From Solirubrobacterales bacterium (GTDB lineage: Bacteria > Actinomycetota > Thermoleophilia > Solirubrobacterales > JACPNS01): a stretch of 64,000 nucleotides of DNA. This document shows, one piece after another, positions 4,825 through 11,642 of this stretch; position 1 is the stretch's first letter, and every line of letters begins with the position of its first letter. A program made the position numbers and the translations under genes. The notes beneath the pieces were generated by a model that was not told the DNA's origin, searched no databases, and worked only from the letters and a program-made list of their open reading frames with translations. The stretch covers positions 186,001 through 250,000 of the forward strand of contig JACPNS010000003.1 in NCBI GenBank assembly GCA_016185345.1. Reading direction: 5' to 3'.

Positions 4825-5028
4825 ATGCCCGCAGTCATCTACAGACTCCTCCGTCTCGCCTGGCGCTACCGCCGCCTGGTCGCCCTCGCGCTCACGATCC
4901 TCGCCGGCCTCGTCGAGCGCCATCGCTCAAAGCTGCCCGGTCCGCTACAGAAGCTGGATCTGACCAAGCTGCCCGGCGTGAACACCAAGTCTCAGCCAGC
5001 GCCCGACACGAAGCCCGCAAAGAAGTAG
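4825..5028 (+). CDS. Small basic membrane-anchored protein
   Basis: A 67-residue protein starting with an ATG 3 bases after the meaB stop, so probably co-translated. Residues 5-30 form an Arg-rich amphipathic start followed by a hydrophobic stretch (LVALALTILAGLV), and the tail is Pro/Lys-rich and probably disordered. I do not recognise a family. The close spacing to meaB suggests the same transcript, with a hairpin at 5039-5069 just beyond. Confidence 0.65.
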   Translation: MPAVIYRLLRLAWRYRRLVALALTILAGLVERHRSKLPGPLQKLDLTKLPGVNTKSQPAPDTKPAKK

Positions 5029-5038
5029 CTCCGCCGAA

Positions 5039-5069
5039 GTCAGGCCACCAGGGGGGAAAGTGGCCTGAC
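5039..5069 (+). terminator. Stem-loop after the meaB transcript
   Basis: A perfect 10-bp inverted repeat, GTCAGGCCAC and GTGGCCTGAC, with an 11-base loop, 11 bases after the last stop of the meaB operon. No T-run follows, so it is terminator-like rather than a classical intrinsic terminator. Confidence 0.5.
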
Positions 5070-5174
5070 CGCGACGCAGCTATGCCCTGTCGCCGAAGCT
5101 GCGCGAATGCGGACAAACAGAGGGCCGAGCCCTTGCCGCGACAGCCCGCACCTGCGCGTCGCTCCGGCGCACAC

Positions 5175-5202
5175 GTAAGAACCCGTGCACACAGGTAAGA
5201 AC
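5175..5202 (+). promoter_or_regulatory. Direct repeat GTAAGAAC x2, 20-bp period, upstream of the first sigma gene
   Basis: GTAAGAAC occurs at 5175-5182 and again at 5195-5202, exactly 20 bases apart, with the wider context CACACgGTAAGAAC-like in both copies. Two helical turns of spacing suits a dimeric activator or tandem operator. The sigma gene starts at 5284. Function is inferred from spacing only. Confidence 0.4.
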
Positions 5203-5283
5203 GAAGCTGCGGGGTAAAGATCACGCTTGAGTACGAAATATTTGTTTGCGCGGCGCCTTGCCCGGGCATCGATTCCATGAACC

Positions 5284-6540
5284 TTGGAACCGCGAGTCAT
5301 ACCGATCTCGAACCGCTCGAGCACAGCGCGCGCCCGCGTCTGGAGCCTGCAGCCCGATGCAGTGCTCTGCAGCGCCGCGTCTCATGGCAACGAGTTGGCG
5401 TTCAGCGAGCTGCACCGGCGGCACTATCCGGCGCTTCGTGCGTTCGTATTTCACCTGCTTGGCTCGCGCCACCGGCACGAGGACGCCGAGGACGTGGTTC
5501 AGGATGCATTCGCCCGAGCGTTCGACGCGCTCAGCGAGCGGCGCTTCAGCGGCGACTTCCGGCGTTGGATTTTCACGATTGCACGCAATCGATCGATCGA
5601 CCTGCTGCGCGGAGAGCGCGTTCGACTTGTCTCGCTCGATGCCGAGGGCACCGAAGCAGCAGTGCCGGTGGCCGCGGAGGCAACGACGCCGGTTGCGGTG
5701 GCCGAGGCTCACGAAGAGGTTGCATGGCTTGTCGCGGCGATCGAGAAGCTGCCCGAGCGTCAACGCAGCGCGCTGTTGTTGCGAGAGCTCGGCGGGTTGT
5801 CGCATTTGGAGATCGCACAGACGCTTGAGACGACGGCCGGCTCTGCCCGCCAGTTGATCACCCGCGCCCGCGATGGCATTCGCGATGCCGCGCAGCGCGA
5901 CGGCCGTGAGCACGAGACAAGCAAGCGCGGGGGCCTGCAGCGCGAGCTGCTCAACGCGGCACCGGTCTTGCCGCTCGCGGCCACCGGCGTGGTTGCCTCG
6001 GCCGGAGTGACTGCGGGTGGAGGACTTGCGATCGGCAAGCTTGCCGCGACGGCATTCGCGGCGATCGTCCTGGCGGGCACGGCGGGAGAAGTTGCGCGCG
6101 AAGTGGCTGGCGCTGGCGATTCGCCGAGTGCGCCGGTTTCGGCCCAGTCCGGTGAGTCGAACAGCGCCAGGCCCGTCTTCCCGCGCGACGAGCGACGCCG
6201 TGAGTCGGGTGCGCGATCAGATCTGAAGCTGCAGGCCAAGGACGCACCGATCCGGGAGAACTTGAAGGCAACGCCGAGCGCGACAAGCCCGGATGCAGCC
6301 CCTTCGGTTTCCGCGGACCAGGCCAAGCGGGCCGACGTGGATGTGCCAGATGACGTTGCGCCGAAAGTCGTTCAGCCGGTCGAGGAGGTCGTCGAGCTTC
6401 CGGGCAAAGTCGTCGAACACGTCGTCGGCGGACTCGACGGATCGACGCCGCTGGACCAGACGGTCGGAAACGTTGTCGGCGAGGTCACCGGGACGCTCGG
6501 CGAAGTGACTTCGGGCCTGCCCGCCCCGAACTCGCGTTAG
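5284..6540 (+). CDS. ECF sigma factor with C-terminal hydrophobic hairpin and disordered tail (paralogue 1)
   Basis: A 418-residue protein. Residues about 40-105 are sigma region 2 (AFVFHLLG, DAEDVVQDAFARAF, WIFTIARNRSIDLLR) and 145-198 are region 4 (LPERQRSALLLRELGGLSHLEIAQTL). Beyond a normal ECF length, residues about 224-272 hold two hydrophobic segments with GKLAAT between them, and 273-418 are a low-complexity, charged tail rich in Val/Glu. The start is a TTG at 5284: the motif QPDAVLC then falls at residues 23-29, as in paralogue 2. No separate anti-sigma gene is adjacent, so the fused C-terminus may hold the factor at the membrane. That role is inference. Confidence 0.85.
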   Translation: MEPRVIPISNRSSTARARVWSLQPDAVLCSAASHGNELAFSELHRRHYPALRAFVFHLLGSRHRHEDAEDVVQDAFARAFDALSERRFSGDFRRWIFTIARNRSIDLLRGERVRLVSLDAEGTEAAVPVAAEATTPVAVAEAHEEVAWLVAAIEKLPERQRSALLLRELGGLSHLEIAQTLETTAGSARQLITRARDGIRDAAQRDGREHETSKRGGLQRELLNAAPVLPLAATGVVASAGVTAGGGLAIGKLAATAFAAIVLAGTAGEVAREVAGAGDSPSAPVSAQSGESNSARPVFPRDERRRESGARSDLKLQAKDAPIRENLKATPSATSPDAAPSVSADQAKRADVDVPDDVAPKVVQPVEEVVELPGKVVEHVVGGLDGSTPLDQTVGNVVGEVTGTLGEVTSGLPAPNSR

Positions 6541-7812
6541 TTCTCGTCGGCCCTTGCGGCCCGCTCGGCGTTTGTCAGCGAGCCATCGAGTCGGCGCGGA
6601 TGGCCGATTGATCCAACCTCTGAGACGTCGCGGCTGAAGGGCAGGCTGACCGTCCAGCCGATCACCGCACGGAGCTTGCGCGAGAAGCCCGCGATCTGAC
6701 TCACGTGGTAGGTCCTGGCCATCCACTATGCGAGCGGCCCGCGAACGCGTAGCTTGCCGGTCATGGCAACCGCTTTGTAGCGACCGAGGTTCACGAAAGA
6801 CCCGCGGTCCTTGTAGGAGCAGGGCCTCGCGAGACCCTCGCCGAGCGACGCCGCAACGTTGAGGCCGACGGCGATGCCTTGCCTGCGGGCGTGTTGGGCA
6901 GTTGGGGGTGAAGCTCGATCGGGATGGATCGGATTCGGCACGGCCGCCGCGTCGCCGATCGCCCAGATCTCCTCGTGGCCCTCACCGCGCATTTCAGCGT
7001 CAACGACGATCCGGCCCGTTTCGTCGAGCCGCAGTCCAAGGTCTGCGACGAGCGGACTGGGCTTTACGCCAGCAGTCCAGACGAGCGTGCGCGTGTTGAT
7101 CCGCTCACCGGTCGATATCAACACGTCATTTGCCGTCACCTCGCGCAGTTGGGTGCCCAATCGCACGTCGATGCAGCGCTTGCGCATTTCGCGCACGGTG
7201 TAGTCGGCGAGCTTTGGGTCGAGTTCGCGCAGCACGCGGTCGGCCGCCTCGACGAGCATCCAGCGCAGGCCGTGTTCGCGCGCGGCCGGATACATCTCCA
7301 TGGCGTCCGTGGCGAAGTCCTGTAGCTCGGCGAGTGCCTCCAGGCCCGCGTATCCGCCGCCGACGAAGACGAAGGTCAAGAGCTCATCCAGCCGACGCGG
7401 ATCGCGCACGGTCTCGGCCAGCTCCAACGAGCGGATCACGTGATTGCGCAGCCAGATCGCGTCTGCGAGGCTCTTGAACTGCGCGCCGTGTTCGGCGAGG
7501 CCGGGGATCGGAAGCGTGCGTGAGACCGATCCGGGCGAAAGCACGAGACGGTCGTAACGCAGCTCGACGGGGTCGCCCTCAGCGTTACGGACCTGAACGA
7601 CCTTGCGCTCGGCGTCAAGGCCGGTCATCGAGCCGAGTGCCACGCGCGACTTGTGCAACAGGTCGCGCGGAGGCGTGACAACGTGGCGAGGCTCGAGCGT
7701 CCCGGCGGCTGCCTCCGGCAGAAAGGGGGTGTAGAGCAAGCAGTTCTGCTCGGAGACAAGCGTGACCTTGACGGAATCCTCGGAGAACTTCTTCTCGATC
7801 ATTCCAAGCCAT
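6537..7812 (-). pseudogene. Type II NADH dehydrogenase-like FAD oxidoreductase, broken at both ends
   Basis: The main frame (stop at 6726-6728; first in-frame ATG at 7802) encodes an NDH-2-like flavoprotein: LLYTPFLPEAAAGTLEPRHVV, the NADH-binding FVGGGYAGLEALAEL, and IWAIGDAAAVP. Two defects are visible. First, the N-terminal FAD-binding GxGxxG strand-turn-helix is missing; a good Shine-Dalgarno (GAGGTG, 7817-7822) and ATG (7812) lie just upstream but in another frame, as if a short deletion followed the start. Second, GPLA is followed by an in-frame TAG and then by W-MARTYHVSQIAGFSRKL and so on to 6537, which is the normal NDH-2 C-terminal membrane-binding part. A functional enzyme is unlikely unless these are sequencing errors or readthrough occurs. 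Confidence 0.75.
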
Positions 7813-7832
7813 GGGTCACCTCTGTGCTTGAG

Positions 7833-7853
7833 CTTGTAACAAACTGTTACAAG
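7833..7853 (-). promoter_or_regulatory. Palindromic operator CTTGTAAC-n5-GTTACAAG
   Basis: A perfect 8-bp inverted repeat with a 5-base spacer lies about 20 bases upstream of the ATG at 7812. A second weaker half-palindrome (GTAACAcgaTGTCAC) overlaps 7859-7873. The shape and TGTAAC half-sites suit a TetR-type repressor of the oxidoreductase gene. The regulator is not in the window. Confidence 0.5.
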
Positions 7854-7888
7854 AGATAGTAACACGATGTCACAAAGTATGCGCGGCC

Positions 7889-7945: not shown

Positions 7946-8692
7946 TTAGAAGTTGCCCTCGTCGGCAGCTGCCAGGCGGATCTTCGTGAAGACGCCGTTC
8001 GTGATCTTGGCGCTCTTGACGTCAGTACCGTCGACCAGTGCTGCCGTCGTGCAGGCAACGGTGTCGTCCTCGCTGTGACGATGGCCGTTGTCGTCGTCAG
8101 AACGGTCGCTGTCGTCGGAGCTGCTGTCGTCCGAACGACGGTCGTCAGAGCCGCGGTCATCGTCTTCGCCGCGTCGATCGCTGTCGTCACTGCGGTCGTC
8201 GCCGCTCTCGTCTTCGCCCTCGCCGTGGCGCGAGACCGATGCCGAGTTGTCATCAGATGAGTCATCGCTGACATCGTCCTGTTCGCAGACAACGCTGCTT
8301 GAGACTGCAGCCGTGACCAGGCCGCGCTTACCGATCGCGAGCGTCAGCCCGTCCTCGGTGCTGTAGCTCTTGACGGTCGACTTCTTCAGCTTGAAACGAG
8401 TGTTCTTGACCGCGCAGTTGGTGCGCAGGCGGGATTCGGCGGCGTTATTGGCACCATCGGCGTCGCTGTCTTCAAGGCCGTCGATCGTGCCGTTGCCGTC
8501 CGTGTCGGTCTTGGTGGAGTCCAGGCCTGCCTGGGTCTCGCAGCGGTTCGACGCGCTATCGCGGTCGCTGTCGATCCGTGCCTGTCGGTCGCCGTGGCCT
8601 CGGTGGGCGCTGGCAGAGCCGACGACAATTGCCATGCCGGCAAGCGCGAGGGCCAGAACGGCGATCAGTTGAAACTTCTTGGTGGAATTCAT
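7946..8692 (-). CDS. Secreted Asp/Ser-rich protein with a calcium-binding-type DxDxDG repeat
   Basis: A 248-residue exported protein. Residues 1-29 are a signal peptide (KK then a hydrophobic core, ending near SASA). Next comes DTDGNGTIDGLEDSDADG, a thrombospondin type 3/dockerin-like calcium loop pattern. A central stretch of about 75 residues is almost only Asp, Ser, Arg and Glu and is surely disordered. The ATG at 8692 has AAGGAG about 10 bases upstream. The promoter region holds a GGGAC-N16-CGTCT element on this strand, matching one in front of the divergent sigma gene. It is therefore a likely target of that sigma factor. No enzymatic role is visible. Confidence 0.82.
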   Translation of the reverse strand: MNSTKKFQLIAVLALALAGMAIVVGSASAHRGHGDRQARIDSDRDSASNRCETQAGLDSTKTDTDGNGTIDGLEDSDADGANNAAESRLRTNCAVKNTRFKLKKSTVKSYSTEDGLTLAIGKRGLVTAAVSSSVVCEQDDVSDDSSDDNSASVSRHGEGEDESGDDRSDDSDRRGEDDDRGSDDRRSDDSSSDDSDRSDDDNGHRHSEDDTVACTTAALVDGTDVKSAKITNGVFTKIRLAAADEGNF

Positions 8693-8756: not shown

Positions 8757-8782
8757 AGACGACGGACCCGAGCAAAAGTCCC
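8757..8782 (-). promoter_or_regulatory. ECF-type promoter for the Asp-rich secreted protein
   Basis: On the minus strand GGGAC (8782-8778, continuing as TTTT) and CGTCT (8761-8757) are separated by exactly 16 bases. This fits the general ECF promoter form, a GGAAC-like -35 and a CGTC-like -10. It would give a leader of roughly 55 bases before the ATG at 8692. Its twin lies on the other strand at 8821-8846. Confidence 0.7.
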
Positions 8783-8820
8783 GCCCGGATCTCAAACTCA
8801 GCAAACTCTCAGTTTCAACC

Positions 8821-8846
8821 GGGACTTTTCTGACCCTGCCCCGTCT
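8821..8846 (+). promoter_or_regulatory. ECF-type promoter of the second sigma gene (autoregulation)
   Basis: GGGAC (8821-8825, continuing as TTTT) and CGTCT (8842-8846) are again 16 bases apart, the same hexamers and spacing as on the opposite strand. Transcription would start close to 8853, leaving only about 10 bases before the TTG at 8863. Identical elements in front of the sigma gene and its divergent neighbour point to recognition by one ECF sigma factor, probably its own product. Confidence 0.7.
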
Positions 8847-8862: not shown

Positions 8863-10206
8863 TTGGAAGCATCCCCCACATACGAACCGCTGTCGCAGCA
8901 CCCAGCTGCCACGCGGCTGATGAACGCCCAGCCCGACGCTGTGCTCTGCCGCCTGGCTGCGCGCGGAAATGTCGGCGCTTACGACGCGATCTACCAGCGC
9001 TATCGCCAGCCTGTCTACGCCTTTGTCTTTCATCTGCTTGGTCGCGCAAACGGAGCCGACGACGCTGAGGACATCACGCAGGATGTCTTCACACGGGCGT
9101 TCGCCGGGATCCGTGAACAACGCGTGAACGGCGGCTTCCGCAGCTGGCTCTTCACGATTGCCCGCAATCGCACCTTCGACGAGATCCGCAGCGGCCGGCA
9201 GAAGGTCGTTTCGCTCGACGCCGAACACGCAGATCCACCTGAGGCGCCCGAGGCGCAGCAGCCGGCCGAACAGGCCGAGCAGCGCGCCGAGTTTGCCTGG
9301 CTGATGTCCGCCGTCGCCGACCTGCCCGAGCGCCAGCGCGAGGCACTGCTGCTGCGCGAGATGGGCGGCTTCTCGCACGAGCGCATCGCCGAAGAGCTCG
9401 GCACAAGCGTCTCTGCGACCAAGAAATTGATCAGCCGCGGACGCGATGGCGTCGGCGCTGCGGCCGCAAACGTCGGCTACAACCGATTCTCGAAGCGGCG
9501 CCTCGGCCACGACCTCGCGATGGCTGCGCCGATCGTGCCCATCTCGATCACGTTGGCGTCGCTGGGCATCACCGGCGGGGTTGCGGCGGGCGGCGCGGCT
9601 GCCGGTGGCGCGCTCGCAGGTGGAGGAGCAGTCATAGGCGGTAAGACCGCGGCGACTGCGCTGACCTTCCTTGCGATCGGCGGCGGAGCGGTTGCGGTCG
9701 AGCACGACACGTCAAAAGGCCGCAAGGCGCAATCAACTGCCGCCCAGGAACAGGCGATCGCCGGGCCGGTAAAGACTGAGCGCGTCGCAAACGGAGTGAC
9801 CAACGGGCGACCGGCACTGCCGTTCGGCGTGGTCGATGGCAGGCGCGGCCGCGGTCGTGACGAGGGCGCAGACGATCGCCGCGATGCACGCGATGACGAT
9901 TCAGGGCGTGGCCCGGGGCCAGATGATCGCGGCGGGCGCGAGGACTCTCGTCGCCGTGGATCCTCCGAGGGCCGTCCGAGCCAGGACGACCTTGAGTCTG
10001 GCGAGCGCGAAGAAGACCGAAGCGGCCGTGGCCGCGGTGGCGACTCAGGACCTTCCGGCTCTGGTTCCGACGACGCAATCGAGAGCGAGGATCCGCCGCG
10101 ACCGCCAGAGATAGAGGATGGCGGTTCGGACCAGAGCGGCAAAGGTTCTGGTTCCCGCGAGGATCCAGAGATCGACAACATCTCGGACGACTCCCTGGAC
10201 GACTGA
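8863..10206 (+). CDS. ECF sigma factor with C-terminal hydrophobic hairpin and acidic disordered tail (paralogue 2)
   Basis: A 447-residue paralogue of the proteins at 5284 and 10293. Region 2 is at about 40-105 (AFVFHLLG, DDAEDITQDVFTRAF, WLFTIARNRTFDEIR) and region 4 at about 145-205 (LPERQREALLLREMGGFSHERIAEEL). QPDAVLC is at residues 23-29. After DLAMAAPIVPI comes a Gly/Ala-rich hydrophobic hairpin with GGKTAAT, then about 150 residues rich in Arg, Asp, Gly and Ser. The TTG start is supported by the N-terminal MEASP, shared with paralogue 3, which uses ATG. An ECF-type promoter at 8821-8846 suggests self-activation. Confidence 0.87.
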   Translation: MEASPTYEPLSQHPAATRLMNAQPDAVLCRLAARGNVGAYDAIYQRYRQPVYAFVFHLLGRANGADDAEDITQDVFTRAFAGIREQRVNGGFRSWLFTIARNRTFDEIRSGRQKVVSLDAEHADPPEAPEAQQPAEQAEQRAEFAWLMSAVADLPERQREALLLREMGGFSHERIAEELGTSVSATKKLISRGRDGVGAAAANVGYNRFSKRRLGHDLAMAAPIVPISITLASLGITGGVAAGGAAAGGALAGGGAVIGGKTAATALTFLAIGGGAVAVEHDTSKGRKAQSTAAQEQAIAGPVKTERVANGVTNGRPALPFGVVDGRRGRGRDEGADDRRDARDDDSGRGPGPDDRGGREDSRRRGSSEGRPSQDDLESGEREEDRSGRGRGGDSGPSGSGSDDAIESEDPPRPPEIEDGGSDQSGKGSGSREDPEIDNISDDSLDD

Positions 10207-10292
10207 CGAGCCAGCGACTCACGCAAACGTCGGGCAAGTGGACGAACATTGCAGCGACACCCTTGTACGGGCGATACGTCAGTTAGAGAAGG

Positions 10293-11642
10293 ATGGAAGC
10301 TTCACCCAAAGATGGACACGGTCTGGTTCCGCCAGGCGCGGTCAGCGGCCGACTGCTCTCAATGCAGCCGGATGCGGTCCTATGCAGGCTCTGCACGCGC
10401 GGAAGCGATGATGCATTCGCCGTGCTGCACGCGCGCTATAGCCAGCAGGTCTTTGCGTTTGTCTTCCACCTCCTCAATCGCCCCGGCTCCGTGGACGACG
10501 CTGAGGACCTGACCCAGGAGATTCTTGGAAAGGCATTCTCAAGTATGAGTACTCGCCGCGATGAAGGGTCCTTCAAAGCTTGGCTCTTCCGAATCGCCCG
10601 CAACCACACCTTCGACCACATCCGGGCTCGTCGCCCGAGCCCAGCCTCGTTCGACGATCCCGACTTCCACGAGGAACCCTCGAACGTCATAAGCCTCCAG
10701 CAGGAGGTCGAGAAGCGTTCCGAGATGGACTGGCTGCTCGCCGCGATGGGCCGGCTTCCCGATCGTCAGCGCGAAGCACTCGTCCTGCGCGAGCTGGGCG
10801 GCATGTCCTATGACGAAATTGGTGAGACGCTCGACACGTCGCCTGAAGGCGTCAAGCAGCTGATCAAGCGCGGGCGTTCAAATGTCTCGCAAGCCGCTGA
10901 GGCCATTGGCTACCGCAGCAAGAGTCTCAGCCGGGATCTCGCAATGGCAGCTCCGATCGTCACGATCGCCTGGATGGGTGCCAGTGCGGGCAACGCAAGC
11001 GCCGCCGCCGCCGTCGGAACCGTCGCGGCAACCACCGGAGGCATCGCAGCCTCAGGCGGTGCAGTGGCGGGCGGAACGGGCCTTGCGATCGCAGGAGGAA
11101 AGGTTGCGGCGACCGTACTCGCAGTAGTCGCCGTCGGAACGGGCGGGGTTGTTGTTGGTGAACAGGTCGTCTCGGAGCGATCTGCCAGCGACCTGCCAGC
11201 CCAATCCGAGTCCACGAAGAGCTCAGGGTCGTCAGGCGCGCCCGCGCAGTCCTTGACCCTTGGCGAGAAGGCCGCTGCTGTCGCCAAGGCAAACAAGGTC
11301 GCCGCGAACAAGCGCCGCGCGGCCGCACAGGAGCGCCGGGCACTGGCAAAGGCCAAGGCCAAGCGCGTCGCAGCAGCCAAGCGCTCAGCGGCCGCGAAGT
11401 CAAAGGCCAGGTCAAACAGCGCCGCCGGCCGATCAAACGGCTCCTCGAAATCGACCGGTGGCGGCAACTCGTCGTTCGGCGGTGGATCCTCCAACAGCAG
11501 TTCCGGTGGATCCAAGTCGGCCACCCAGAACAACACCGGCGGCAACGGGCCGGGCTCTCAGGGCGGCTCGGGCCAGCCGACTACGCAGGGTTCGGGCAAC
11601 GGCTCCGCCAACTCAAACGCTGGCGGAAAAACCAAGGAGTAA
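10293..11642 (+). CDS. ECF sigma factor with C-terminal hydrophobic hairpin and Ser/Gly/Asn-rich tail (paralogue 3)
   Basis: A 449-residue member of the local sigma family. Region 2 (AFVFHLLNRPGSVDDAEDLTQEILGKAF, written here in full only to position the domain, about 55-82) and region 4 (LPDRQREALVLRELGGMSYDEIGETL) are intact. QPDAVLC is at residues 25-31. DLAMAAPIV is followed by a long Ala/Gly hydrophobic part ending in GGKVAAT, then a Lys/Ala-rich stretch and a Ser/Gly/Asn-rich end. The ATG at 10293 has AGAAGG directly against it. The gap to paralogue 2 is only 86 bases and lacks the GGGAC-N16-CGTCT element, so it may be read through from upstream. Confidence 0.85.
   Translation: MEASPKDGHGLVPPGAVSGRLLSMQPDAVLCRLCTRGSDDAFAVLHARYSQQVFAFVFHLLNRPGSVDDAEDLTQEILGKAFSSMSTRRDEGSFKAWLFRIARNHTFDHIRARRPSPASFDDPDFHEEPSNVISLQQEVEKRSEMDWLLAAMGRLPDRQREALVLRELGGMSYDEIGETLDTSPEGVKQLIKRGRSNVSQAAEAIGYRSKSLSRDLAMAAPIVTIAWMGASAGNASAAAAVGTVAATTGGIAASGGAVAGGTGLAIAGGKVAATVLAVVAVGTGGVVVGEQVVSERSASDLPAQSESTKSSGSSGAPAQSLTLGEKAAAVAKANKVAANKRRAAAQERRALAKAKAKRVAAAKRSAAAKSKARSNSAAGRSNGSSKSTGGGNSSFGGGSSNSSSGGSKSATQNNTGGNGPGSQGGSGQPTTQGSGNGSANSNAGGKTKE

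Follow-up and report, generated by a model that had tools for sequence, protein, structure and literature searches.

Mirrored candidate ECF promoters between a tailed sigma factor gene and a secreted Asp-rich protein gene in Solirubrobacterales

Positive autoregulation of ECF sigma factors has been described as common (PMC5826349). In the actinobacterial groups ECF48, ECF52 and ECF53, for example in SCO4117 of ECF52, the sigma factor carries a C-terminal transmembrane extension, and proteolytic release is expected (PMC8999054). The published motif of SCO4117 is CSGYN-17bp-SRHA (PMC5826349). In the mycobacterial MprAB-SigE pathway, the ECF sigma gene is induced by a two-component system (PMC11173970). 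The response regulator PhoP of M. tuberculosis binds strictly to 7-bp repeats separated by a spacer of 4 bp (PMC4832192).

Here we describe a locus in a 64,000-nucleotide stretch of DNA (hereafter the window) from a Solirubrobacterales assembly of 2.43 Mb in 22 contigs with a completeness of 96.7%. A secreted protein gene, sec, and a sigma factor gene, sig2, are divergent in this locus, and mirrored promoter-like elements lie between them. The features are as follows.
5284-6540, plus strand: sig1, a third tailed ECF paralogue
7946-8692, minus strand: sec, secreted Asp-rich protein of 248 aa with a signal peptide-like N-terminus
8757-8761, minus strand: predicted -10 CGTCT of the sec-facing promoter, CGTC conserved in orthologues
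8774-8783, minus strand: predicted -35 arm CGGGACTTTT of the sec-facing promoter (core GGGAC 8778-8782), 9/10 positions invariant in four genomes
8796-8813, plus strand: direct repeat ACTCAGC-N4-TCTCAGT with an 11-bp period, PhoP-box-like, candidate response-regulator site
8820-8829, plus strand: predicted -35 arm CGGGACTTTT of the sigma promoter (core GGGAC 8821-8825), conserved
8842-8846, plus strand: predicted -10 CGTCT of the sigma promoter, 5/5 positions invariant in four genomes
8863-10206, plus strand: sig2, tailed ECF sigma factor of 447 aa (sigma2 43-112, sigma4 146-194)
10256-10280, plus strand: predicted sig3 promoter GACAC-N16-CGTC (GACACCCTTGTACGGGCGATACGTC)
10293-11642, plus strand: sig3, paralogous tailed ECF sigma factor

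Like autoregulated ECF factors whose promoters have a -35 of AAC type and a -10 of GTC type, the locus combines a promoter of the sigma gene's own with a small local target and bipartite promoters of fixed spacing. It differs from them in a -35 of GGGAC or GACAC in place of the AAC core kept by relatives across the order, in having two identical promoters placed back to back, and in that no separate anti-sigma gene was noticed adjoining sig2. The mirror-pair promoter also differs from the SCO4117 motif. Autoregulation by ECF factors is already known; the mirrored layout is a new form of it.

Direct reading and a pattern search found GGGACTTTT-N12-CGTCT, equal to GGGAC-N16-CGTCT, on both strands between sec and sig2, which bears out base for base the paired arms and CGTCT boxes claimed by an earlier reading made from the sequence only. 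The plus-strand element is GGGACTTTTCTGACCCTGCCCCGTCT (8821-8846), and the minus-strand element is GGGACTTTTGCTCGGGTCCGTCGTCT (8782-8757). Written as plus-strand letters, the arms are exactly AAAAGTCCCG (8774-8783) and CGGGACTTTT (8820-8829). On the minus strand, CGTCGTCT can be read in more than one register, and the N16 register is favoured because the orthologues read ..CACCGTCT, ..CAGCGTCT and ..CACCGTCA. Transcription from the sigma promoter is predicted to start at ~8853. The distance from its CGTCT to the TTG start codon at 8863 is 16 nt, which corrects the 17 bases given by the sequence-only reading.

These elements are rare. Shuffling predicts 0.25 matches to GGGAC-N16-CGTCT for the window, which has 2. 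When the whole 2.43-Mb genome was scanned for GGGACTTT-N13/14-CGTC, the mirror pair gave the only exact matches and there was no third copy; the reversed-pattern control had 0 matches. Allowing one mismatch added four further matches, all inside open reading frames, so the search for a wider regulon returned no exact or one-mismatch match elsewhere between genes. Other GGRACTT-N14-CGTC matches in congeners likewise fall inside open reading frames. In each of four genomes, GGRAC-N16-CGTC occurs on both strands of the intergenic region in at most 5e-5 of 20,000 dinucleotide shuffles of that genome's own region. A search for Sigma-70 promoters and Rfam families gave nothing credible. Separately, two terminator-like matches at the sec promoter were rejected, as their number equals the shuffle expectation.

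The congeneric comparison covers five genomes, G000 (the window's own) to G004, two of which (G000 and G001) are close relatives, so independent comparisons are few. Besides G000, both promoters are kept at exactly N16 in G001, G004 and G003, where the sigma factor shares 89%, 64% and 50% identity with sig2, respectively, and is divergent from a secreted-protein gene in each case. Conservation upstream of orthologous gene pairs, on which the sequence-only reading had staked its proposal, thus holds in these genomes and, on the sec side, in G002, where the promoter reads CGGGACTTTCCCCGCGGCGAACCGTCA and the region stops at a contig edge. In the four-genome alignment, 25/30 promoter positions are invariant, compared with 14/122 in the rest of the intergenic region once the direct repeat is set aside as well. 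All congeners have CGTCT or CGTCA as their -10. Promoter specificity is not identical across the genus, because the sigma -35 core of G003 is GGAAC (element GGAACTTTT) and the sigma-side element of G001 is GGGACCTTT. In three genomes, 38 bp separate the GGGAC cores (8783-8820 in the window); in G003 the distance is 48 bp, longer by roughly one helical turn. With 89% identity, a sigma gene in the Thermoleophilaceae MAG SupBloom_Metag_045 (L033) is a near relative of that of the window.

The sigma factor of G002 on the same contig is preceded by GACAC-N16-CGTCT instead, with an opposing GGCAC-N16-CGTC. The latter element (L090, G002:C20, 1565-2020) faces an NADH dehydrogenase-like gene without an intervening secreted-protein gene. 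It may be the remnant of an arm whose partner was lost, or it may drive the NADH dehydrogenase-like gene. Farther along the same contig (3254-3990), a frameshift breaks the secreted-protein gene, either through an assembly error or as a pseudogene.

Sig2 contains sigma2 and sigma4 domains without sigma1 or sigma3, as is typical of the ECF class, with Pfam Sigma70_r2 and Sigma70_r4_2 above cut-off and TIGR02937 (sigma70-ECF) at 87.7 bits against a cut-off of 42.9. A bipartite autoregulatory promoter with fixed spacing is also expected of the class; congeners have it at N16, and relatives across the order have it with a different sequence. The C-terminal extension of 250 residues has one or more hydrophobic segments at ~218-280 (19-residue hydropathy peak of 1.94 at residue 218), followed by a charged low-complexity tail. 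With its hydrophobic, putatively transmembrane segment, this extension matches the tails of ECF48, ECF52 and ECF53. Relatives across the order resemble those groups in combining an ECF domain, HxxxCxxC, a hydrophobic segment and a long tail. The HxxxCxxC motif follows sigma4 in the paralogue p4 and in 24/24 full-length relatives from the order, whereas it is absent from sig1, sig2, sig3 and the orthologues in G002, G003 and G004, which sets them apart from the ECF48/52/53 type with its zinc-finger (ZAS) anti-sigma domain. The loss of the zinc anti-sigma motif from the window's sigma clade is new here.

Sec contains TSP3-like DxDxDGxxD repeats and a beta domain that is split by a low-complexity linker of acidic residues. 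Its predicted structure has a low overall confidence (mean pLDDT 53.5), with ~80 in the small split beta domain, and a PDB fold search with this model gave no match at E <0.4. At a cut-off of 25, Pfam TSP3_bac scores 28.2 in an orthologue (L089) and 36.5 in the paralogue secB (L088), while sec itself has no match. The matches in its relatives support the previous description of sec as a calcium-binding type, and sec is probably a calcium-binding protein. A segment resembling a signal peptide speaks for secretion; nothing like an anchor was seen that would make sec the surface protein of that description.

Relatives across the order also carry promoter-like elements of this geometry. Three other families of the order supplied 25 ECF-zinc-finger homologues for comparison. 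GNAAC-N16-TGT[CT] was found at most 330 nt upstream of the homologue at 17/25 loci, and 22/25 match when the -10 is relaxed to NGT[CT]. At these 25 loci, spacings other than N16 gave at most 1 match and the reverse strand at N16 gave 0. The genus motif, as GGRAC-N16-CGTC or NNNAC-N16-CGTC, was not found outside the genus in the oriented order-level scan. Since the order-wide relatives and p4 (GCGAC-N16-TGTC upstream in G002 and G003) share N16, the geometry is ancestral, and it is the sequence that has changed in the clade of the window. The sigma 4.2 helix of ECF factors contacts the -35. This helix reads TKKLI[S/G]RGR with GGGAC, KQLIK[R/H]GR with GACAC in two lineages, and VKSLLVRAR with GCAAC, so the recognition helix and the -35 class appear to change together. 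Among order-wide loci and in L092 (G000:C5, 1-354), the p4-type sigma gene often adjoins an apparent tRNA gene (antisense CCCGGGGTGGGACTTGAACCCACA).

We consider it likely that the mirror elements are divergent ECF promoters of one specificity, with -35 GGGACTTT, -10 CGTCT and 16 nt between GGGAC and CGTC, and that sig2 reads both and activates its own gene and sec. The claim that the sigma factor drives itself and sec was made from the sequence earlier, and it gains support from the near-uniqueness of the pair in the genome, from the conservation in congeners, from the recognition helix that varies with the -35 class, from a second mirror pair at sig3 and from the order-wide promoters, which strengthen the autoregulatory reading because they lie upstream of the homologues' own genes with the same N16 geometry. 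The hydrophobic segment and tail would keep the sig2 product at the membrane, and proteolysis would free it, as is proposed for other tail-fused ECF groups; release is suggested here because it is expected for ECF48, ECF52 and ECF53 (PMC8999054).

The second mirror pair is found in G001, where sig3 is divergent from secB, the gene of a second Asp-rich TSP3 protein. GACACCC-N14-CGTC (GACAC-N16-CGTC) is mirrored on both sides, with 9-bp arms GGGTGTCAC...GTGACACCC, and the reversed-pattern control had 0 matches in the five genomes. The window has no secB; sig3 retains its own promoter copy there, and the opposite arm has decayed from GGTGTCACGCAA (G001) to GCGACTCACGCAA (window), as it should if every arm has a single gene to serve. 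Because sig3/secB has a different and equally mirrored -35, this pair strengthens the reading of sig2 as autoregulated. Another sigma factor (sig1, sig3 or p4) could instead read the sig2 and sec promoters in a hierarchy, with sig2 as a target and not the driver. The genome has four tailed ECF paralogues, and no N16 promoter of the mirror-pair type was found upstream of sig1 in the same cluster, so that a sister sigma factor or another ECF factor could be the reader. However, sig3 and p4 have promoter classes of their own that differ from the mirror pair (GACACCC/CGTC for sig3; GCGAC or GAAAC with a TGTC-like -10 for p4), and the mirror pair is present in G003 and G004, where only a sig2-type sigma factor and p4 were detected. 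We regard such a hierarchy as unlikely. Upstream of sig1 (5023-5283), GCACACGTAAG and AAAGATCACGCT blocks are conserved with G001.

Activation by sig2 may not be the whole of the regulation. The direct repeat at 8796-8813, which 7 nt separate from the sigma -35 downstream of it, is a lead that is new here and absent from the sequence-only reading. It reads TCTCAGC-N4-TCTCAGG in G001 and TCTCAGG-N4-TCTCAGG in G004. Its 7-bp repeats and 4-bp spacer correspond to a PhoP-type box, with 14/14 matches in G001 and G004 and 12/14 in the window, a value reached by 1.4% of shuffles. It shares this architecture with the M. tuberculosis PhoP box TCACAGC-N4-TCACAGC and differs in its consensus, TCTCAG and not TCACAGC, and in the degeneracy of the window copy. 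With one mismatch allowed, there are 11 sites in the five genomes against 1 in the control. In G000 (C3:96685-97404) and G004, the repeat lies just upstream of a PhoP-like response-regulator gene, which is followed by a histidine kinase gene. The solved structure nearest to this regulator is M. tuberculosis PhoP (269 bits, compared with 170 for MtrA), and the regulator is below all NCBIfam equivalog cut-offs. The repeat stands before a conserved permease gene as well (MINFPYLKAEL...; G000:C5:83352, G001:C20:60193), which suggests a small PhoP-like regulon. As a regulatory site the repeat is only a lead, because it was found post hoc, the genomes behind it are few, and the window has its weakest copy.

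A PhoP-like regulator bound to the TCTCAG repeat might prime or repress the sig2 loop. The locus is best read as a small sigma-effector module with autoregulation, which a two-component system possibly gates. This layout is the same as in MprAB-SigE; it differs in the regulator, in that no RseA-type anti-sigma factor was seen, and in the membrane-tailed sigma factor. The two-component system could also be primary, with the regulator at 8796-8813 activating both genes and the sigma promoters secondary. In favour of this, the repeat is present in G000, G001 and G004, and it also lies upstream of the regulator gene in G000 and G004. Neither the repeat nor a close regulator was found in G002 and G003, while G001 has the repeat and no regulator was found in its 82%-complete assembly. 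Nevertheless, G003 keeps the mirror promoters without the repeat, the window copy is degenerate, and the repeat is not reliable at sig3/secB (best 11/14), which makes a primary role quite improbable.

It is highly improbable that the 10-bp arms are operator halves for a repressor or activator, or a hairpin, with incidental CGTCT matches: the arms are indeed an exact inverted repeat, with a core gap that grows by about one helical turn in G003, but CGTC is kept at exactly N16 on both sides in four genomes while the bases between change, order-wide relatives have a -35/-10 pair on one strand and no mirror, and a 36-nt loop is long for a hairpin, which upholds the earlier view of the arms as two -35 elements.

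The reading in which sig2 drives itself and sec gives a base-precise promoter prediction for an uncultured, unstudied group of tail-fused ECF factors, next to GNAAC-N16-TGT[CT] as an order-wide promoter rule for their zinc-finger relatives. It also predicts a single acidic, secreted protein as the output of sig2, and this would aid the search for the signal. We put forward more tentatively, as a possibility rather less likely than not, that these are private modules in which each zinc-less tailed ECF factor drives only itself and one divergent TSP3-type gene, and duplicates diverge and are insulated. After duplication, the -35 and the recognition helix would diverge jointly into insulated copies (GGGACTTT at sig2/sec; GACACCC at sig3/secB). 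In G002 and G003, no GGGAC- or GACACC-type site was found at the start of other TSP3-type secreted genes away from sigma genes. The paralogues form a natural series that is useful for the origin of new orthogonal sigma-promoter pairs.

Repeated TTGTAACA/TGTTACAA-like palindromes occur at 7830-7880 in the window, upstream of an NADH dehydrogenase-like gene (6726-7865, minus strand), and also in G002 (L090, ~1610-1650). These palindromes are a probable operator of another regulator.
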